Assembly (NCBI GenBank): GCA_946638615.1
Contig: CAMPBO010000005.1
Span: 1 to 32,479 of the forward strand
Reading direction: 5' to 3'
DNA from: an uncultured Candidatus Saccharibacteria bacterium
GTDB lineage: Bacteria; Patescibacteriota; Saccharimonadia; Saccharimonadales; Saccharimonadaceae
DNA: 32,479 nucleotides
In this document: positions 1,661-30,939 of the stretch, piece after piece
Position numbering within the stretch: the first letter of the stretch is position 1
Layout: the number at the start of each line of letters is the position of its first letter
The notes under the pieces: generated by a model
What the model was told of the DNA's origin: nothing
The model's database searches: none
Seen by the model: only the letters and a program-made list of their open reading frames with translations
Made by a program: the position numbers and the translations under genes

Positions 1661-3553
1661 TTATTTATCTACCACTTCACCTTCGACGGCGTCGTCGTCT
1701 TTGGAAGATTTGTCGTCGTCCGAAGAATCTTTCTTGGTATCTTCGGAAGCAGATTGATAGAGCTTGGCGCCGATTGGCATGATTTTGTCAGAAAGTTCCT
1801 TAGCGGCAGCTTCGAGCTTTTCTTTGTCGGCGTCGGTGTCATTTAGAACTTTTTTAGCGTCTTCGACAGCTTTTTTGATAGTTTCCTTGTCGTCGTCACT
1901 GATTTTGTCCTTGTATTCATCTGGCATTTTTTCGGCCTGATAGATGGCGTTTTCTAGGTGGTTCTTAGTATCAATCGTATCGCGCTTTTTCTTGTCTTCG
2001 TCGGCGTGCATCTCGGCTTCTTTACGAGCTTTTTCGATATCGTCTTTGCTCATATTGCCAGAGTTTTGAATCGTAATAGATTGCTCTTTGCCAGTTCCCT
2101 TATCCTTAGCGGTAACGTTCAAAATACCGTTGGCATCGAGATTGAAGGTAACTTCGATTTGTGGCACTCCGCGTGGAGCTGGGGCGATACCATCTAAGAT
2201 GAAGCGGCCGAGAGATTTGTTATCGGCGGCAAATTCACGCTCGCCTTGGAGAACGTGGATTTCTACTTGAGGTTGATTATCGGAAGCGGTAGAGAAAATC
2301 TCAGATTTGCTGGTTGGGATGGTGGTGTTTCTGTCAATCAACGGAGTACGAACACCGCCCATGGTCTCAATACCGAGGGTAAGTGGAGTAACGTCAAGAA
2401 GAAGCACATCCTTGACATCGCCTTGGAGAACACCGCCTTGGATAGCTGCGCCTACGGCTACAACTTCGTCTGGGTTAACACCTTGCATTGGGTCTTTGCC
2501 GAAGATGGATTTAACCTTTTCGACAACGGCTGGCATACGGGTCATACCACCGACCATCACGACTTCGTTGATGTCTTTGGTGTCGAGCTTAGCATCCTTT
2601 AGAGCTTTTCTCACTGGTTCTTCGAGACGATCGAGGAGCGGGGAAACGAGCTCTTCTAACTTGGCGCGAGTAAGAGTGGTCTCAAAATGCTTTGGCCCGT
2701 CAGCGTCAGCACTTAAGAATGGAAGGTTAATGTCGGTAGAGGTGCTGGAGCTGAGCTCTTTCTTGGCTTTTTCGGCTTCGTCTTTGACGCGTTGCATGGC
2801 GGCAGCGTCGCCTTTGATATCGATACCGGATTCTTTCTTAAATTCATCAACAAGGTAGTTAACGATGATGTTGTCGAAATCTTCACCACCGAGGTGGGTA
2901 TCACCGTTGGTGGACATCACTTCAAAGACACCGTCGCCGAGTTCGAGGATGGAAACATCAAAAGTACCACCACCGAGGTCGAAAACAACGATTTTTTCGT
3001 CTTTTTTGGATTCGAGACCATAGGCTAGAGCTGCGGCGGTAGGCTCATTGATGATGCGCTTGACTTCGAGGCCAGCGATTTTACCAGCGTCCTTAGTAGC
3101 TTGGCGCTGAGAATCATCAAAATAGGCAGGCACCGTGATAATGGCTTCGGTGACTTTCTCGCCGAGAAAAGCTTCTGCATCAGCTTTGATTTTGCTGAGG
3201 ACCATTGCGGAGATTTCCTCTGGGGTGTATTCTTTGCCGTCCATTTCGACAGCTACGCCCTGACCCTTTTTGACGATTTTGTAGGGGCTGATTTCGAGGT
3301 CGTGTTTGACTTCTTTGTCTTCAAATTTGCGACCGATTAAGCGCTTGATGCCGTAAATGGTGTTTTTAGGGTTGGTAACACGTTGGCGCTGAGCAACTTT
3401 ACCGACTAATCTTTCGCCCTTTTTGGTGACAGCCACTACTGATGGGGTAGTACGATCACCCTCTGCGTTAGTAATAACTTCTGGTTTGCCGGCAACCATG
3501 TAAGCGAAGGCGCTGTTGGTGGTGCCAAGGTCAATACCGATGATTTTTGACAT
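1661..3553 (-). CDS. dnaK: Molecular chaperone DnaK (Hsp70)
   Basis: [33 protein letters not shown], acidic C-terminal tail; SD AAGGAG upstream of the ATG. Confidence 0.98.
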
Positions 3554-3568
3554 ATTTTATCTCCTTTT

Positions 3569-3595
3569 CTAGCACTCGTTATGTTTGAGTGCTAA
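3569..3595. promoter_or_regulatory. CIRCE element (HrcA operator), dnaK-proximal
   Basis: CTAGCACTC-N9-GAGTGCTAA; one mismatch to TTAGCACTC-N9-GAGTGCTAA. Confidence 0.93.
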
Positions 3596-3605
3596 TCCTT
3601 CTCTT

Positions 3606-3634
3606 ATTGTATATCATTAGCACTCGTTTGTCAA
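3606..3634 (-). promoter_or_regulatory. dnaK promoter
   Basis: Minus strand TTGACA (3634-3629), 17-nt spacer, TACAAT (3611-3606). The -35 lies inside the N9 spacer of the distal CIRCE. Confidence 0.8.
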
Positions 3635-3643
3635 TAGTGCTAA
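3617..3643. promoter_or_regulatory. CIRCE element (HrcA operator), dnaK-distal
   Basis: TTAGCACTC-GTTTGTCAA-TAGTGCTAA; one mismatch. Confidence 0.93.
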
Positions 3644-3749
3644 CGTAGGGTTGTCTGCGGGGGGCGTTTCGGAAAAACAAATAAATTTATTTTTCTGGAT
3701 TTTTACCAAGACGAGTTTAGGAAGGGGGTATTTATGATATAATGTCAGT

Positions 3750-4769
3750 ATGGCAATAGAGAGGTTAGTGGAGCCAACTGCGGGTTCTAATGATATTGAA
3801 GAAGAGCGGATGGAGATTTCGCTTCGACCAACGTCGTTTTCTGAGTATATTGGACAGGAGCATCTTAAAAACAATTTGAAATTAGCGATTGAGGCAGTAA
3901 AAAAGCGAAACGATGGTTCGACGCTCGACCATATATTATTATATGGTCCACCTGGGCTTGGCAAAACTACAATGGCAGGGGTGATTGCACACGAGCTAGG
4001 TGCGTCTTTAAGGGTAACTTCGGGGCCAGCGATTGAGCGGGCTGGAGACCTTGCATCGATTTTGACCAACCTGAAAGATGGCGATGTGCTCTTTATTGAT
4101 GAGATCCATCGATTGCGCCGGGCGGTGGAAGAAGTTTTGTATTCGGCGATGGAAGATTATAAGTTAGATATCGTAATCGGAAAAGGCCCAGCAGCGCGTA
4201 GTGTGAGGCTAGATTTACCGAGATTTACAGTGATTGGTGCGACGACGCGAACAGGGTCTCTGGCAGGGCCACTCCGAGATAGATTTGGAATTATTCATCG
4301 GCTGGAATATTACAAGGAGCCAGAGATTGAGCAGATTATTAAACGTACAGCTGGGATTTTGAAGACAAAAATTCAGCCAGAGGCATGCGAACTATTAGCA
4401 ACACGTTCGAGATTGACGCCGAGAATCGCAAACCGTTTATTTAAGCGGGTGCGGGATTTTGCAGACGTGAATGGCGATGGTATAATTGATCGGGAAATTG
4501 CTACGCGCTCTCTTGAGATGATGGAGATTGATTATTTGGGGCTTGATCTGGCAGACAGAAACATGCTTAGACTGATGTATGAAAATTATGGGGATAGGCC
4601 AGTAGGGCTTACAACTATAGCGGCACTTACGGGTGATGAAATGACAACGATTGAAGATTTTTATGAGCCATATTTATTACAGCTGGGATTAATCGCAAGA
4701 ACCCCTAAAGGAAGAGTAGTAACCGAGAAAGGGCGAAAACATTTACAAAATTCTAAAAATAAGGTATAA
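3750..4769 (+). CDS. ruvB: Holliday junction DNA helicase RuvB
   Basis: [72 protein letters not shown]. Confidence 0.97.
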
Positions 4770-4790
4770 TCATAAAAAGGAGTACCTATT

Positions 4791-5387
4791 ATGGATGAAT
4801 CTTTGGTAAAAATTCGTCATGGGAGAAGCTTAAAAGATTTTCCACATTTAAAGCTTGAAAAAGATGAATATGTGGAATTTGCTTTCACAAGAGCCAAAAT
4901 ATGCCTCTTGATGATTATAGGTGGAATAGTATTAGGTTTTGTTGCGATTATCGCGGTTTTTCTGTTGGTTACAATGAGCGAATTGATGCTAGATAAAATG
5001 GGTGAACATTTTTTGTTTATTATTTTGGGAGCTTTGTTTGCGGCGGTATGTATAATGGGGATGGTGTCGATTCGGATTTATCGAGGTAATAAACTTTTTA
5101 TTACCAATAAACATATAATGCAATTTGTAATGAATTCACTAGTGTCAACTTCAATAAACATTATTGATATTGATTCAGTGGAAGATGTAAGTTTTAGACA
5201 AGATAACATTTTTCAAAAAATATTCCATTATGGAACTTTTAGACTTTCGACAATCGGTGATGAAACGACTTATACGTTTAATTATTCGGATATTTTGCCG
5301 TCAGAGCTTCGGGCGGTGACTAATATGGTGACTGCGGCCAAACAAAAGAACAAGAAAAGTAGTCAAAGAGTAGAAAAAGACAATTAA
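4791..5387 (+). CDS. PH-domain (bPH_2-like) membrane protein
   Basis: Two N-terminal TM segments, then 'RIYRGNKLFITNKHIMQF...STSINIIDIDSVEDVSFRQDNIFQKIFHYGTFRLST'; SD AAGGAG. Confidence 0.65.
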   Translation: MDESLVKIRHGRSLKDFPHLKLEKDEYVEFAFTRAKICLLMIIGGIVLGFVAIIAVFLLVTMSELMLDKMGEHFLFIILGALFAAVCIMGMVSIRIYRGNKLFITNKHIMQFVMNSLVSTSINIIDIDSVEDVSFRQDNIFQKIFHYGTFRLSTIGDETTYTFNYSDILPSELRAVTNMVTAAKQKNKKSSQRVEKDN

Positions 5388-6105: not shown

Positions 6106-7356
6106 ATGTTAAAAAAATCAAGGGAATTATTGAAAAAGTTTTGGGAAAAGCAGATTCATCAGTCTTGGCTGATGGTGTTTTTGTGTGCTGGAATAATCAT
6201 TGGTGCGGTGCTAGGATTAGTCTTTAAGATAAATTATTTTGCGTCGAGATGGTGGATTTTTTTGGCTTTGCTGCTTTTGGTTTTTGCATATTTGAAACCA
6301 AAATTTGCGTCAGTAATAGTGGCTTTTGTTGCGGGAATGATAATGGTGTTTTTGCGAGTGAGGACAGAGCTTATAAAACAAGATACTCTGGGTAAGAAAT
6401 ATAATGTAACGGCGGAAATAGAGACTGAAAAATGGGTAACGGACACGCGAGACTGGTTTGCGGAAAGGATACGAAAATTGGTGTCCGAACCAGAAGTAAA
6501 CTTAGGTTTATCTTACCTCATGGGAATGAAGTCGGGATTATCTGATGATTTGACGGAAGATTTAAAGACGATAGGATTGACACATATTGTAGTGGCGAGT
6601 GGTGCACACTTGTCGATTTTGGTAGAAATTGCGCGGAAGATTTTTGGGCGAGCTTCGCGATTTGTAGGACTTTTGTTTTCGATAATTTTTATTGGATTTT
6701 TTATGAGTATGGTGGGGTGGACGCCATCAATTTTGAGGGCTGGAGTAATGACGATTTTGACACTACTAGCATGGTATACGGGGCGAAAATTTGAAGCTTG
6801 GCGGATAATTTTATTGGTGGCTGGATTTACTTTAATGATAAATCCGATGTTTGTAACAAACCTAGGTTGGCTCTTGTCTTTTTCGTCATATGCAGGAATT
6901 ATGATTTTAGGGCCGAAGCTTAGTAAATTTTTTTATGGCGAAAAACAGCCAGGATTCATTGCGAGCATGATTATTACGACGGTTTCGGCAACGCTAATGA
7001 CGCTCCCGATTACGCTATATTATTTTGGACAGGTGTCACTGATTTCTGTAGTAGCGAATCTTTTGATTTTACCGACTCTGCCATATGCAATGGGGCTAAC
7101 TTTCCTTGCGGGGGTGTTTGCAGGATTGCCTGGAATTGAGACGGCAGTGGGTTTTGCTACGACAAAACTTTTGGATTTTCATATTGGGGTAGTGGAATTT
7201 TTTGGTGAAATGAAACAATTTGCGATAAAAATTGATCCATATAATCAGAAGTTATTTTTGTTTTATATATTAATAATAATTGGACTAAATTGGCGAAAGA
7301 TGGTAAAATTAAGAGAAGTTAGATATAAAATTAAAAGGATTTTGACGGGAGAAAAT
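6106..7356 (+). CDS. comEC: ComEC/Rec2-like competence domain protein, N-terminal part of a continuous frame
   Basis: 'IGLTHIVVASGAHLSILVEIARK', 'GWTPSILRAGVMTILTLLAWYTGRK', 'NPMFVTNLGWLLSFSSYAGI', multiple TM segments. No metallo-beta-lactamase domain; no stop before YebC. Confidence 0.8.
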
Positions 7357-8058
7357 ATGTCTGGACATAGTAAATGGGCGACCACTAAGAGGCAAAAAGC
7401 AGTAGTTGACGCTAAGCGCGGCGCGCTTTTTACCAAAATTGGGAACCAAATTGCAATTGCGGCGAGAGCTGGAACAGATCCAGCAATGAATCCAAGTTTG
7501 GCAATGGTGCTTGAAAAAGCACGACTTGCAAATATGCCAAAAGCTAATATTGAGCGGGCGATTCAGCGCGTAGCGGATAAATCGGCGGCGACTCTTATTG
7601 AAGAAGTATATGAAGCCTATGGCCCTGGTGGCGTAGGAATTGTAATTGAAGTAGCAACGGATAACAAAAATCGAACAATGCCAGAAGTGCGTCATGCTCT
7701 CGATAAAAATGGTGGCCGAATGGCAGAGCCAGGAAGTGTAATGTTTCAATTTGCTCGTAAGGGCGTGATTGAAATTTCCGAAAAAGGTGATGACGTGATG
7801 ATGGTAGCATTAGATGCTGGCGCGGAAGATGTGTCAGATGAGGATGAAGGGACAATAATTTATACAGCAGCTTCAGATTTGATGAAAGTAAGGCAAGCTT
7901 TGGTAGATGCAGGAACTACTGTGATGTCGGCTGAGCTTCAATATGTGCCAACATCATATGTTCCGATTGAAGGTGAGAATGCTGAAAAACTTGAAAAGCT
8001 ACTATCAGCAATCGATGATCTCGATGATGTGACGAACGTTTATATAAACGCAGAATAA
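7357..8058 (+). CDS. yebC: YebC/PmpR (TACO1) family protein, in frame with the upstream ComEC-like region
   Basis: MSGHSKWATTKRQKAVVDAKRGALFTKIGNQIAIAAR...; internal ATG at 7357 with an upstream GGGAG. Confidence 0.93.
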   Translation: MSGHSKWATTKRQKAVVDAKRGALFTKIGNQIAIAARAGTDPAMNPSLAMVLEKARLANMPKANIERAIQRVADKSAATLIEEVYEAYGPGGVGIVIEVATDNKNRTMPEVRHALDKNGGRMAEPGSVMFQFARKGVIEISEKGDDVMMVALDAGAEDVSDEDEGTIIYTAASDLMKVRQALVDAGTTVMSAELQYVPTSYVPIEGENAEKLEKLLSAIDDLDDVTNVYINAE

Positions 8059-28300: not shown

Positions 28301-30184
28301 TTATAAAACTTCAATATTTGCGATGAGCCTGTCAAGAAAAGCTTGACGGGCTTTTTCGCTGTTATCTGGATTGCCGGCCCAAGCGTAAAGGGCGGGATCT
28401 TGCAAAGCGCGAGCAAAAGAGAAGGTAACAGGCCAAGGGAAAGGGCCGTTTTTGACGATTTCGGCGAGGTTTTCGGTAGCTTGCTCTTCTGTCTGCCCCC
28501 CAGAAAGGAAGACGATACCAGCAAGTTCTGTAGGAACGTGATTTTTTAAGACCTCGGCGGTAGCTTGACCGACGACTTCGGGAGTGGACTGTTTTAGCCA
28601 TTTTTTACCAGCTAGAATCATATTAACTTTGAGAATACAAGCTTTCAGGTTAACTTGCTTTTCTTTGAGATCCTCAAAAAGTACGTCTAGAATATGACTG
28701 GTAACTTCGGCGGATTTTTCGATTGGGTAATTACCGTCGTAGACGACTTCTGGTTCAACAATGGGGACAATGTTAGCGGATTGGCAGATAGAAGCGTAAT
28801 CGGCTAGGATACGACAGTTTTCGGCGATGGCGGTATCAGTGGGGGTGAGAAGCTCGCCATCATCAGTGAGAGTAATATTAAAAGCGGTGCGCCATTTGGC
28901 AAAGCGCAGTCCCATTTGATAGTATTCTTCAAGACGAGATTTCAAGTTATCTAGACCTTTGGTGTAAGTCTCAATAGTGTCTGCTGGAAGGTTGGGGTAG
29001 ATTTCGCTCAGTGGAGCAAGACCTTCGTCAACTTTGATGCCTGGAATGATGCACCTACTAGTGAGATATTTGACAATATTTTGGCCATTACTAGTAGTAC
29101 CACGAGCGGTTTCGTCAAAAAGAATGATGCCGCTTAAATATTTCTCGATTTCGGGGGTAGAGAAAAAGAGGTTGCGATAATATTGGCGATTGTCGTAGGT
29201 GTCTTCGATGTTTAGCTGAGCGAATTTCTTTTTGATGGAGCCACCAGATTCGTCGGCGGCGAGGATGCCTTTTTTGTCAATTACTAGGCTTGCAGCAATG
29301 AGTTCGAGCCCATCATTAGAACTTAAGGTGGAAGCGATTTCTTTAAGTTTGTCGAGAGGGAGAACATCGTTTACTTTGGCGTTTTCGATGTTAGCGCGAG
29401 CGAGTTTGAGACTTTGTTCGACCGAAAGCCCTAAAATAAAACTGCCTAGTACTGTAGCAGATAAAATGGAATAAGCCGAAAGATGAGTGAGAGTATCGAT
29501 ATGTCCAACAGTGATGCGCTCTGTGATGTCGAGATAAGAAAGTTGGTTTTCGGAGAGATGAATGATTTTTGATGGTGAAATAGAAGCAATTTTAGATGTG
29601 AAATCAGACGTAGCAAGCGCGTAAGGATTTTCCGATTGGTCTTTGTTGTTTTCGAGAAAAACCAAATCGGCTCTTAGTAAGAGTGGGGCGAGATTTTCGC
29701 TGTTTTGAGGATGGATATAGAGAACTAGTTTGGTCTTTGAAGAAAGTTCGAGGTAGGCTTGGATTTTTTTGACGGAATCTGGACTAAGATTGGCAGAGCG
29801 GTCGACAAAAAGATAATCAATAGCTTCGGTGGGAGATTGAAAAACAGTCTCTTTAAATTGGCTAGGAGCAAAATATGTTACTTGATTATCTGCAATCAAT
29901 AAATAACGATAGGCGGAAGGAAAAATTTCAAAAGACGATTGTTCGGTTAAAAAATCAAGTTTGGAATTAGAAATAGTAGCAGAAAGTCCTAGCTTTTGAA
30001 GGACCTCAAGAGAAACGGCGGCGCCACCAAAACTACTATCACGATTAAAAAAGTTGTGTTTACTGGCATTAAAACTAAGATTTAGCCATTTAGTGCCGTT
30101 ACGATCGGTTTCAAAAAACTCAGACCGAGTATCGAGATTAAGATAGACATCTTTAGTAATGTTGCCCACCACTACAATGTTCAT
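28301..30184 (-). CDS. Fusion: N-terminal PfkB-like sugar kinase domain (degenerate) + C-terminal class I fructose-bisphosphate aldolase
   Basis: N-terminus MNIVVVGNITKDVYL...SFGGAAVSLEVLQKLGLSATI; C-terminus 'KKGILAADESGGSIKKKF...LKACILKVNMILAGKKW...GIVFLSGGQTEEQATENLAEI...PWPVTFSFARALQDPALYAWAG'. Confidence 0.92.
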   Translation of the reverse strand: MNIVVVGNITKDVYLNLDTRSEFFETDRNGTKWLNLSFNASKHNFFNRDSSFGGAAVSLEVLQKLGLSATISNSKLDFLTEQSSFEIFPSAYRYLLIADNQVTYFAPSQFKETVFQSPTEAIDYLFVDRSANLSPDSVKKIQAYLELSSKTKLVLYIHPQNSENLAPLLLRADLVFLENNKDQSENPYALATSDFTSKIASISPSKIIHLSENQLSYLDITERITVGHIDTLTHLSAYSILSATVLGSFILGLSVEQSLKLARANIENAKVNDVLPLDKLKEIASTLSSNDGLELIAASLVIDKKGILAADESGGSIKKKFAQLNIEDTYDNRQYYRNLFFSTPEIEKYLSGIILFDETARGTTSNGQNIVKYLTSRCIIPGIKVDEGLAPLSEIYPNLPADTIETYTKGLDNLKSRLEEYYQMGLRFAKWRTAFNITLTDDGELLTPTDTAIAENCRILADYASICQSANIVPIVEPEVVYDGNYPIEKSAEVTSHILDVLFEDLKEKQVNLKACILKVNMILAGKKWLKQSTPEVVGQATAEVLKNHVPTELAGIVFLSGGQTEEQATENLAEIVKNGPFPWPVTFSFARALQDPALYAWAGNPDNSEKARQAFLDRLIANIEVL

Positions 30185-30939
30185 AGAACTCCTAAAATAC
30201 CCTTTAAGGCGAAGGCGGTGTCTTCGTGGCTTCTAACGGTGATAGTATCGATGCCCATTTCGACAATAGGATAATCGTTGCCACCAGGTTGAGTCATGTC
30301 GCCAAAATAAAGGACGTCTTCCTTCTTAGCGCCTAGCTCTTCTAGGAGATGTTTCATACCGAAAGCTTTATTCATTCCTGGGGTGATGGCGTTGATTGAG
30401 GTGGTACCACCAATTTCATAGTCAAATTCGGGAGCAAGCTCTTTGCAGCGAGCGACGATTTTTTCGCGTTTTTTACAATCGGGATCCCAAGCGTATTTCT
30501 CTTCTGTGCCAGCATGCTGACCGAGGGCAGAAAAAGTAACTTGAGAGAGGCGATTTTCGATAATCTCGTCGCCTGGTTTTAACTTATCTTCTTCCCAGAA
30601 ACCCAGCTCTCTAGCGGCCCGCTCAATGGTCTGGCTGATTTTTGTAACTTGTTCATTAGTTAATGGATAATTATAAACTTGTTTCCAGTCGCCATTTTTA
30701 TAACGATAATATTGAGTGCCCTGAGCAACGAAGAGGTGAAGATGTGAGAGCTGCTCTGGAGTGGGGCTCTTAAGGCGATTGACGATTTGGATTAAGAATT
30801 GGTCGAATTTTTGGCCAGAAATTGGACAGATTTCAAAACGATCAAGACATTTGACGAGCAAATCGGCAATTTCGTCATTGATTGGGGTTTTTGCAACATT
30901 TAAAGTTTGGTCAATATCAAAAGCTAAAATTCTTTTCAT
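30181..30939 (-). CDS. HAD superfamily phosphatase / phosphomannomutase-like (HAD-IIB)
   Basis: ILAFDIDQTLNVAKTPI, 'GGTTSINAITPGMNKAFGMKHLLEELGAKKEDVLYFGDMTQPGGNDYPI'. Confidence 0.82.
   Translation of the reverse strand: MKRILAFDIDQTLNVAKTPINDEIADLLVKCLDRFEICPISGQKFDQFLIQIVNRLKSPTPEQLSHLHLFVAQGTQYYRYKNGDWKQVYNYPLTNEQVTKISQTIERAARELGFWEEDKLKPGDEIIENRLSQVTFSALGQHAGTEEKYAWDPDCKKREKIVARCKELAPEFDYEIGGTTSINAITPGMNKAFGMKHLLEELGAKKEDVLYFGDMTQPGGNDYPIVEMGIDTITVRSHEDTAFALKGILGVL

Follow-up and report, generated by a model that had tools for sequence, protein, structure and literature searches.

The window analyzed here is a 32,479-nucleotide stretch of contig CAMPBO010000005.1 from an uncultured "Candidatus Saccharibacteria" bacterium (GenBank assembly GCA_946638615.1). 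As a preliminary description of the sequence had stated, without naming a strand, a single open reading frame encodes a two-domain protein, whose C-terminal half is a full-length class I fructose-bisphosphate aldolase; the frame lies on the minus strand (Table 1). In a Pfam search, residues 293 to 623 matched PF00274 with an E value of 7.6e-103 and 344 bits (cut-off, 22.2), and the same half scored 377.5 bits against NF033379 (curated cut-off, 250); among solved structures, its closest relatives are class I aldolases (1a5c and 2eph, for example). Each of the nine active-site residues examined, K519 included, is present: rabbit D33, K107, K146, R148, E187, E189, K229, S271, and R303 correspond to D311, K384, K430, R432, E477, E479, K519, S561, and R592. 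These matches and residues bear out the complete aldolase, with its Schiff-base context ACILKVNM, that had been reported. Judging from its sequence, the protein appears to combine a catalytically dead PfkB domain at its N terminus with a class I fructose-bisphosphate aldolase whose active site is complete.

Table 1. The fusion gene, its domains and motifs, and the gene upstream (window positions)
Feature	Position	Strand	Evidence
Fusion gene, PfkB-derived pseudokinase plus class I fructose-bisphosphate aldolase, 627 aa	28301..30184	-	ORF and profile matches
N-terminal pseudokinase domain, aa 1 to ~285, ribokinase-like fold	29330..30184	-	hhalign, fold match, alignments
Residues 51-67, SFGGAAVSLEVLQKLGL, former GGxxxN motif of the sugar side (GG retained, Asn lost)	29984..30034	-	alignments
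Y92-R93-Y94, aligned with YRF of E. coli Pfk-2	29903..29911	-	alignments
D128-R129-S130-A131, pseudokinase-specific conserved DRSA	29792..29803	-	alignments
T233-S239, THLSAYS in place of DxTGAGD (catalytic Asp to S239)	29468..29488	-	alignments
Class I fructose-bisphosphate aldolase domain, aa 293-623	28316..29308	-	PF00274, NF033379, solved relatives, active-site residues
Schiff-base lysine K519 within ACILKVNM, equivalent to rabbit aldolase K229	28619..28642	-	active-site alignment
Upstream gene, HAD-IIB/phosphomannomutase-like	30181..30939	-	profile matches

The HAD-IIB/phosphomannomutase-like gene overlaps the start of the fusion gene by 4 bases, and the two probably form an operon, although the link is not a general one. 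It was found in 89 of 99 genomes of the genus, mostly with 72 to 88% identity, which exceeds the conservation of the N-domain of the fusion. We rejected a joint loss of this gene and the aldolase, given its presence in the aldolase-less genomes G228, G249, G257, and G265; its place varies. Elsewhere in the window, a 650-aa frame (positions 6106 to 8058, plus strand) begins as a ComEC-like membrane protein and continues without a break as a complete YebC/PmpR-like protein (MSGHSKWATTKRQKA...). Noted by eye only, it may be a real fusion or the product of a lost stop codon.

Residues 1 to about 285 matched neither PF00294 (PfkB) nor any other Pfam family at an E value of 1 or below, whereas related fusions with an intact kinase match PF00294 at 1e-29 to 1e-34. 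Because the PfkB profile is silent on this half, its earlier assignment as a PfkB/ribokinase-like domain was not a trivial one. The assignment was sustained by a comparison of alignments: 27 N-domains (A1), set against an alignment (A2) of six intact PfkB domains found in the same bacterial family, gave an hhalign probability of 99.3 and an E value of 3.8e-20 over 269 columns, and A2 matches solved ribokinases and fructokinases. Structure prediction, which had been suggested as a check, likewise pointed to a ribokinase-family fold; in a Foldseek search with the predicted N-domain, the top PDB matches all belonged to the ribokinase family (E value, 3e-6). Model quality was limited, since the two structure predictions were built from the sequences of the window, L002, and L003 only. 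Neither AlphaFold model is better than mediocre in the N-domain (pLDDT 58.9 and pTM 0.64 for the three-sequence AlphaFold2 model of this domain, with pLDDT below 50 at residues 9 to 57 and 68 to 110), and both are weak exactly at its conserved residues. The pseudokinase profile retrieved nothing useful from PDB chain sequences (best E value, 0.28), so the ancestry rests on profile-profile comparison and fold. No relative was found in the viral contigs scanned with this profile.

The N-domain was aligned with its pseudokinase homologues, with E. coli Pfk-2, and with intact K2, the name given here to the PfkB kinase found across the order Saccharimonadales. The GN/GDxxxD strand, the GG loop, and the helix that follows GAGD align with those of PfkB kinases, including K2, whereas NxxE, TDGxxG, and DxTGAGD are absent from the N-domain. 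The last of these motifs is replaced within residues 228 to 239 (HIDTLTHLSAYS; positions 29468 to 29503, minus strand). The preliminary description had found the correct site, but its interval, 29474 to 29497, falls 6 bases short at each end. In a register that runs without gaps through the next helix, GAGD corresponds to S236-A237-Y238-S239 and DxT to T233-H234-L235; another register, with D230 on the Asp of DxTGAGD, was rejected in favor of this gapless one. The reported loss of the kinase GAGD is thus confirmed, and the residues in its place lie within a new motif, THL[ST]xYS. Its conservation in homologues, another suggested check, is high: over 57 homologues, THL is 88 to 98% conserved, and the position of the catalytic Asp is occupied by Ser in 86%. 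No aligned homologue of the pseudokinase clade retains the Asp, the GAG anion hole, NxxE, or TxGxxG, and the C-terminal nucleotide loop of the pseudokinase domain is lost as well. Nucleotide motifs that are lost in the 57 homologues are intact in the related fusion and in the ancestor, which supports the earlier view of a pseudokinase as opposed to a bifunctional kinase-aldolase. The N-domain is very probably dead as an ATP-dependent kinase, and we infer that it no longer phosphorylates anything.

Conservation within the domain is uneven. Over the 57 pseudokinases, the ATP side scores 0.28 (NKEE) and 0.41 (TDGPKG) against a mean of 0.51, while the four former sugar-side motifs reach 0.84 (GNxxKD), 0.76 (GG loop), 0.67, and 0.66, and the lid reaches 0.61. 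Residues W33, H43, R48, R93, D128, and R129 are invariant or nearly so in the pseudokinases but not in the K2 kinase. R93, invariant across all 57, is replaced by W or Y in intact K2 kinases; it lies in YRY, which aligns with the YRF motif of E. coli Pfk-2, where Arg90 contacts fructose 6-phosphate. With the Asn of GGxxxN lost on the sugar side, substrate binding of the K2 type cannot be assumed.

A K2 kinase-aldolase query gave matches in 237 of the 247 order genomes sampled; in most families, only the kinase part was matched. K2 is a stand-alone protein in most families of Saccharimonadales, and several genera in the family of the window have a K2 with an N-terminal extension. A K2 that retains all kinase motifs is fused to a class I aldolase in genera g35 and g31 (L053 and L054 exceed the cut-offs of both PF00294 and PF00274). 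The fetched K2 loci have an intact DRTGAGD, apart from L118 and L121, which escaped the strict search pattern; L121 reads ERTGAGD. In the aldolase tree, which has a single distant outgroup, the intact-kinase fusions and the pseudokinase fusions are sister groups (SH-aLRT 90). The distant Saccharimonadales fusion with an intact DRTGAGD appears to show the ancestral state, itself derived from the order-wide PfkB kinase, and the simplest history would be that fusion came first and the loss of kinase chemistry second. The extended form of K2 (L096 to L118) has intact motifs and an extension of about 170 aa without a Pfam match; it usually stands in tandem with a second PfkB (K1), and a SLOG-like gene lies downstream where examined (L096).

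Matches were found in 140 of 295 genomes of the family, and the same fusion also occurs in genus g11. By a hand count over 74 genomes of the window's genus, the full fusion is present in 62; nine others retain the N-domain, but their aldolase is missing or eroded or their gene is truncated. The remaining three (G219, G247, and G257) have neither half, so the whole protein is dispensable there. A sequencing or assembly fusion, which the preliminary description had raised as a possible refutation, is ruled out by the recurrence of the full fusion in the 62 genomes. The dN/dS of the N-domain is 0.05 to 0.16 in fused pairs and 0.076 (L062/L063) and 0.069 (L072/L073) in stand-alone pairs (some pairs have saturated synonymous sites), values that point to strong purifying selection on the pseudokinase domain. 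A nonfunctional relic or an artefact would suit the missing PfkB profile match, but this idea is refuted by the conservation of the fusion in the genus and in g11 and by the low dN/dS, and it retains practically no probability.

The aldolase half has a different fate in several lineages. Remnants that lack some catalytic residues are found in L061, L062, L063, and L065, and no aldolase domain is left in L064, L066, L068, L070, L071, L072, and L073; the stand-alone pseudokinase is a protein of about 265 aa. On the N-domain tree, a minimum of seven changes is needed for loss or decay of the aldolase, with fusions that end at contig ends (L060, L067, L069, and L058/L057) left out of the count. 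The aldolase half has thus been lost, or is decaying, in at least seven lineages that keep the pseudokinase. Most assemblies are drafts, in which single absences are weak evidence, and the key losses were read at the locus with neighbors on both sides. No class I, class II, or DeoC-type aldolase was found in G195, G251, G264, G233, G265, and G228 (95 to 98% complete), and no PfkB kinase was found in G265, G228, and G286; all that is left of the aldolase in G286 is a decayed remnant. In G165, the stand-alone pseudokinase gene shares its final codons with the start of a class II aldolase gene, and the class I domain was seemingly displaced in place by this unrelated enzyme (L070, positions 3019 to 4852). 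In the L042-L044 clade, the fused aldolases are 51 to 56% identical and the pseudokinases 70 to 77%, so that the aldolase evolves faster, the reverse of the usual pattern; this clade also has E189D at an otherwise fixed active-site position of the aldolase.

Canonical phosphofructokinase (PF00365) was found in 4 of 121 family genomes, and the genomes sampled from the window's genus yielded none; its absence has been reported for Saccharibacteria and CPR bacteria (PMC8386444, PMC7304191). The only canonical genes among the 121 genomes are L075 to L078 (G002, G059, G025, and G087), and G002 and G059 also carry the pseudokinase-aldolase fusion, that of G059 being split over two contigs. Given this gap and the attachment of the N-domain to the next enzyme of glycolysis, the domain might be taken for a still-active kinase that supplies the missing phosphofructokinase. 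We rejected this explanation as highly improbable on two grounds. (i) The catalytic Asp, the GAG anion hole, NxxE, and TxGxxG are gone throughout the clade. (ii) The window's genome encodes another PfkB, K1 (L001), which has an intact DSTGAGD and lies beside rpiB and rpe. Relatives of K1 adjoin a class II aldolase gene in g7, g31, and g35, an arrangement that resembles TM7x_02415/TM7x_02420, where a predicted PfkB-type phosphofructokinase lies beside a fructose-bisphosphate aldolase (PMC12815258). K1 is a better phosphofructokinase candidate than the pseudokinase domain and, by synteny only, may be the counterpart of TM7x_02415.

We propose that the N-domain has been repurposed as a noncatalytic binding module that would act as a sensor or scaffold. 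Its likeliest ligand would be a sugar or phosphosugar, bound through the former sugar side of the fold with the newly conserved set K11, D12, E25, D27, W33, H43, R48, R93, D128, and R129, or else a partner protein; a sugar phosphate is the first guess because of the location of the conserved residues. In the fused form, the domain may also tune or position the aldolase, but this would not be its essential role. Taken as a whole, this explanation seems to us a little better than evenly balanced. Its parts differ in strength: the retention of the domain after the aldolase was lost or began to decay in at least seven lineages indicates a function of its own, and an independent, conserved function is quite probable, while the choice of sugar-phosphate sensing or scaffolding over a new enzyme activity is an even one. 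The preliminary description had favored a regulated kinase-like/aldolase pair. A pseudokinase joined to an intact aldolase is indeed what the window encodes, but regulation of the aldolase as the only role does not fit a domain that outlives it. A sensor acting purely in cis on its own aldolase, allosterically or through the substrate, would account for the domain being fused, in 62 of the 74 genus genomes, to an aldolase whose active site is complete, and the class II aldolase gene overlapping the 3' end of the pseudokinase gene in G165, where the class I domain is gone, is the one hint that aldolase chemistry and the pseudokinase still belong together. Such a sensor is nevertheless unlikely, as selection on the N-domain continues after the aldolase losses, in some cases in genomes where no fructose-bisphosphate aldolase was found.

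Independence from the aldolase would equally suit a neofunctionalized enzyme, with new chemistry performed by THL[ST]xYS and the newly conserved Asp, Arg, and His residues. The conservation of THL[ST]xYS means that this motif could form a new active site, and the dense polar set K11, H43, R48, R93, D128, R129, T233, and H234 is not found in the ancestral kinase. On the other hand, conserved residues alone cannot tell binding from catalysis, the profile found no similar sequence among solved PDB chains, and no enzyme of the ribokinase fold is known to us to function when the GAGD region is missing; we consider a new enzyme about as doubtful as the in-cis sensor. The lid region is the dimer interface in ribokinases, and the lid is among the better conserved parts of the domain, as expected of a structural or oligomerization module that merely stabilizes the protein as a dimer clasp. 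A stabilizer should vanish with the aldolase, yet the domain is kept alone as a small protein, which makes this role improbable. We find it reasonably likely that these proteins form a bacterial PfkB pseudokinase family with a new, aldolase-independent function (metabolite sensor, protein adaptor, or novel enzyme). This family would have originated within a fusion of kinase and aldolase, lost its kinase chemistry, and then repeatedly outlived the aldolase, even in genomes that yielded neither a phosphofructokinase nor a PfkB kinase nor a fructose-bisphosphate aldolase.

Genomes of 0.5 to 1.1 Mb rarely keep dead enzymes, and a conserved dead sugar kinase that outlasts its partner in gut Saccharibacteria suggests that these bacteria have an unrecognized function, in regulation or binding, at the head of the glycolytic pathway. 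Such a function would bear on how carbon enters metabolism in Saccharibacteria without canonical phosphofructokinase (PMC7304191, PMC8386444, PMC12815258). Our findings also carry a warning for annotation: the open reading frame is labeled as an aldolase only, Pfam misses the pseudokinase half, and the stand-alone forms would be called "hypothetical." No description of this pseudokinase or of a pseudokinase-aldolase fusion was found in the open-licence literature.

The aldolase domain resembles other class I fructose-bisphosphate aldolases (PF00274 and NF033379) in being full-length, above the curated cut-offs, and complete in its active site; it differs from them in bearing an N-terminal pseudokinase and in decaying or disappearing in several relatives. 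With PfkB/ribokinase-like kinases (PF00294, including K2), the N-domain shares fold and ancestry, but it lacks a match to the family profile at an E value of 1 or below and carries newly conserved residues. A PfkB-type kinase and an aldolase also share one chain in the 5-dehydro-2-deoxygluconokinase/aldolase (NF047869) and KHG/KDPG aldolase-sugar kinase (NF041633) families, neither of whose models matched the window protein at an E value of 1 or below; these proteins act on other substrates, whereas the window protein pairs a kinase predicted to be dead with a class I fructose-bisphosphate aldolase. TM7x_02415/TM7x_02420 of Nanosynbacter lyticus likewise bring together a PfkB-type kinase and a fructose-bisphosphate aldolase in Saccharibacteria (PMC12815258), but they are two genes, the kinase is predicted to be active, and by synteny it probably corresponds to K1 (L001) and not to the pseudokinase. 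The plant proteins FLN1 and FLN2 are of the PfkB type, have no fructokinase activity, and are part of the plastid RNA polymerase complex (PMC3409070, PMC9698557); they are examples of PfkB-fold proteins that lack sugar kinase activity and serve another role, as proposed for the N-domain. No link to transcription was seen for the window protein, and the FLNs retain a G/ASGD motif, including its Asp (PMC9698557), whereas in the window protein this motif is wholly replaced.
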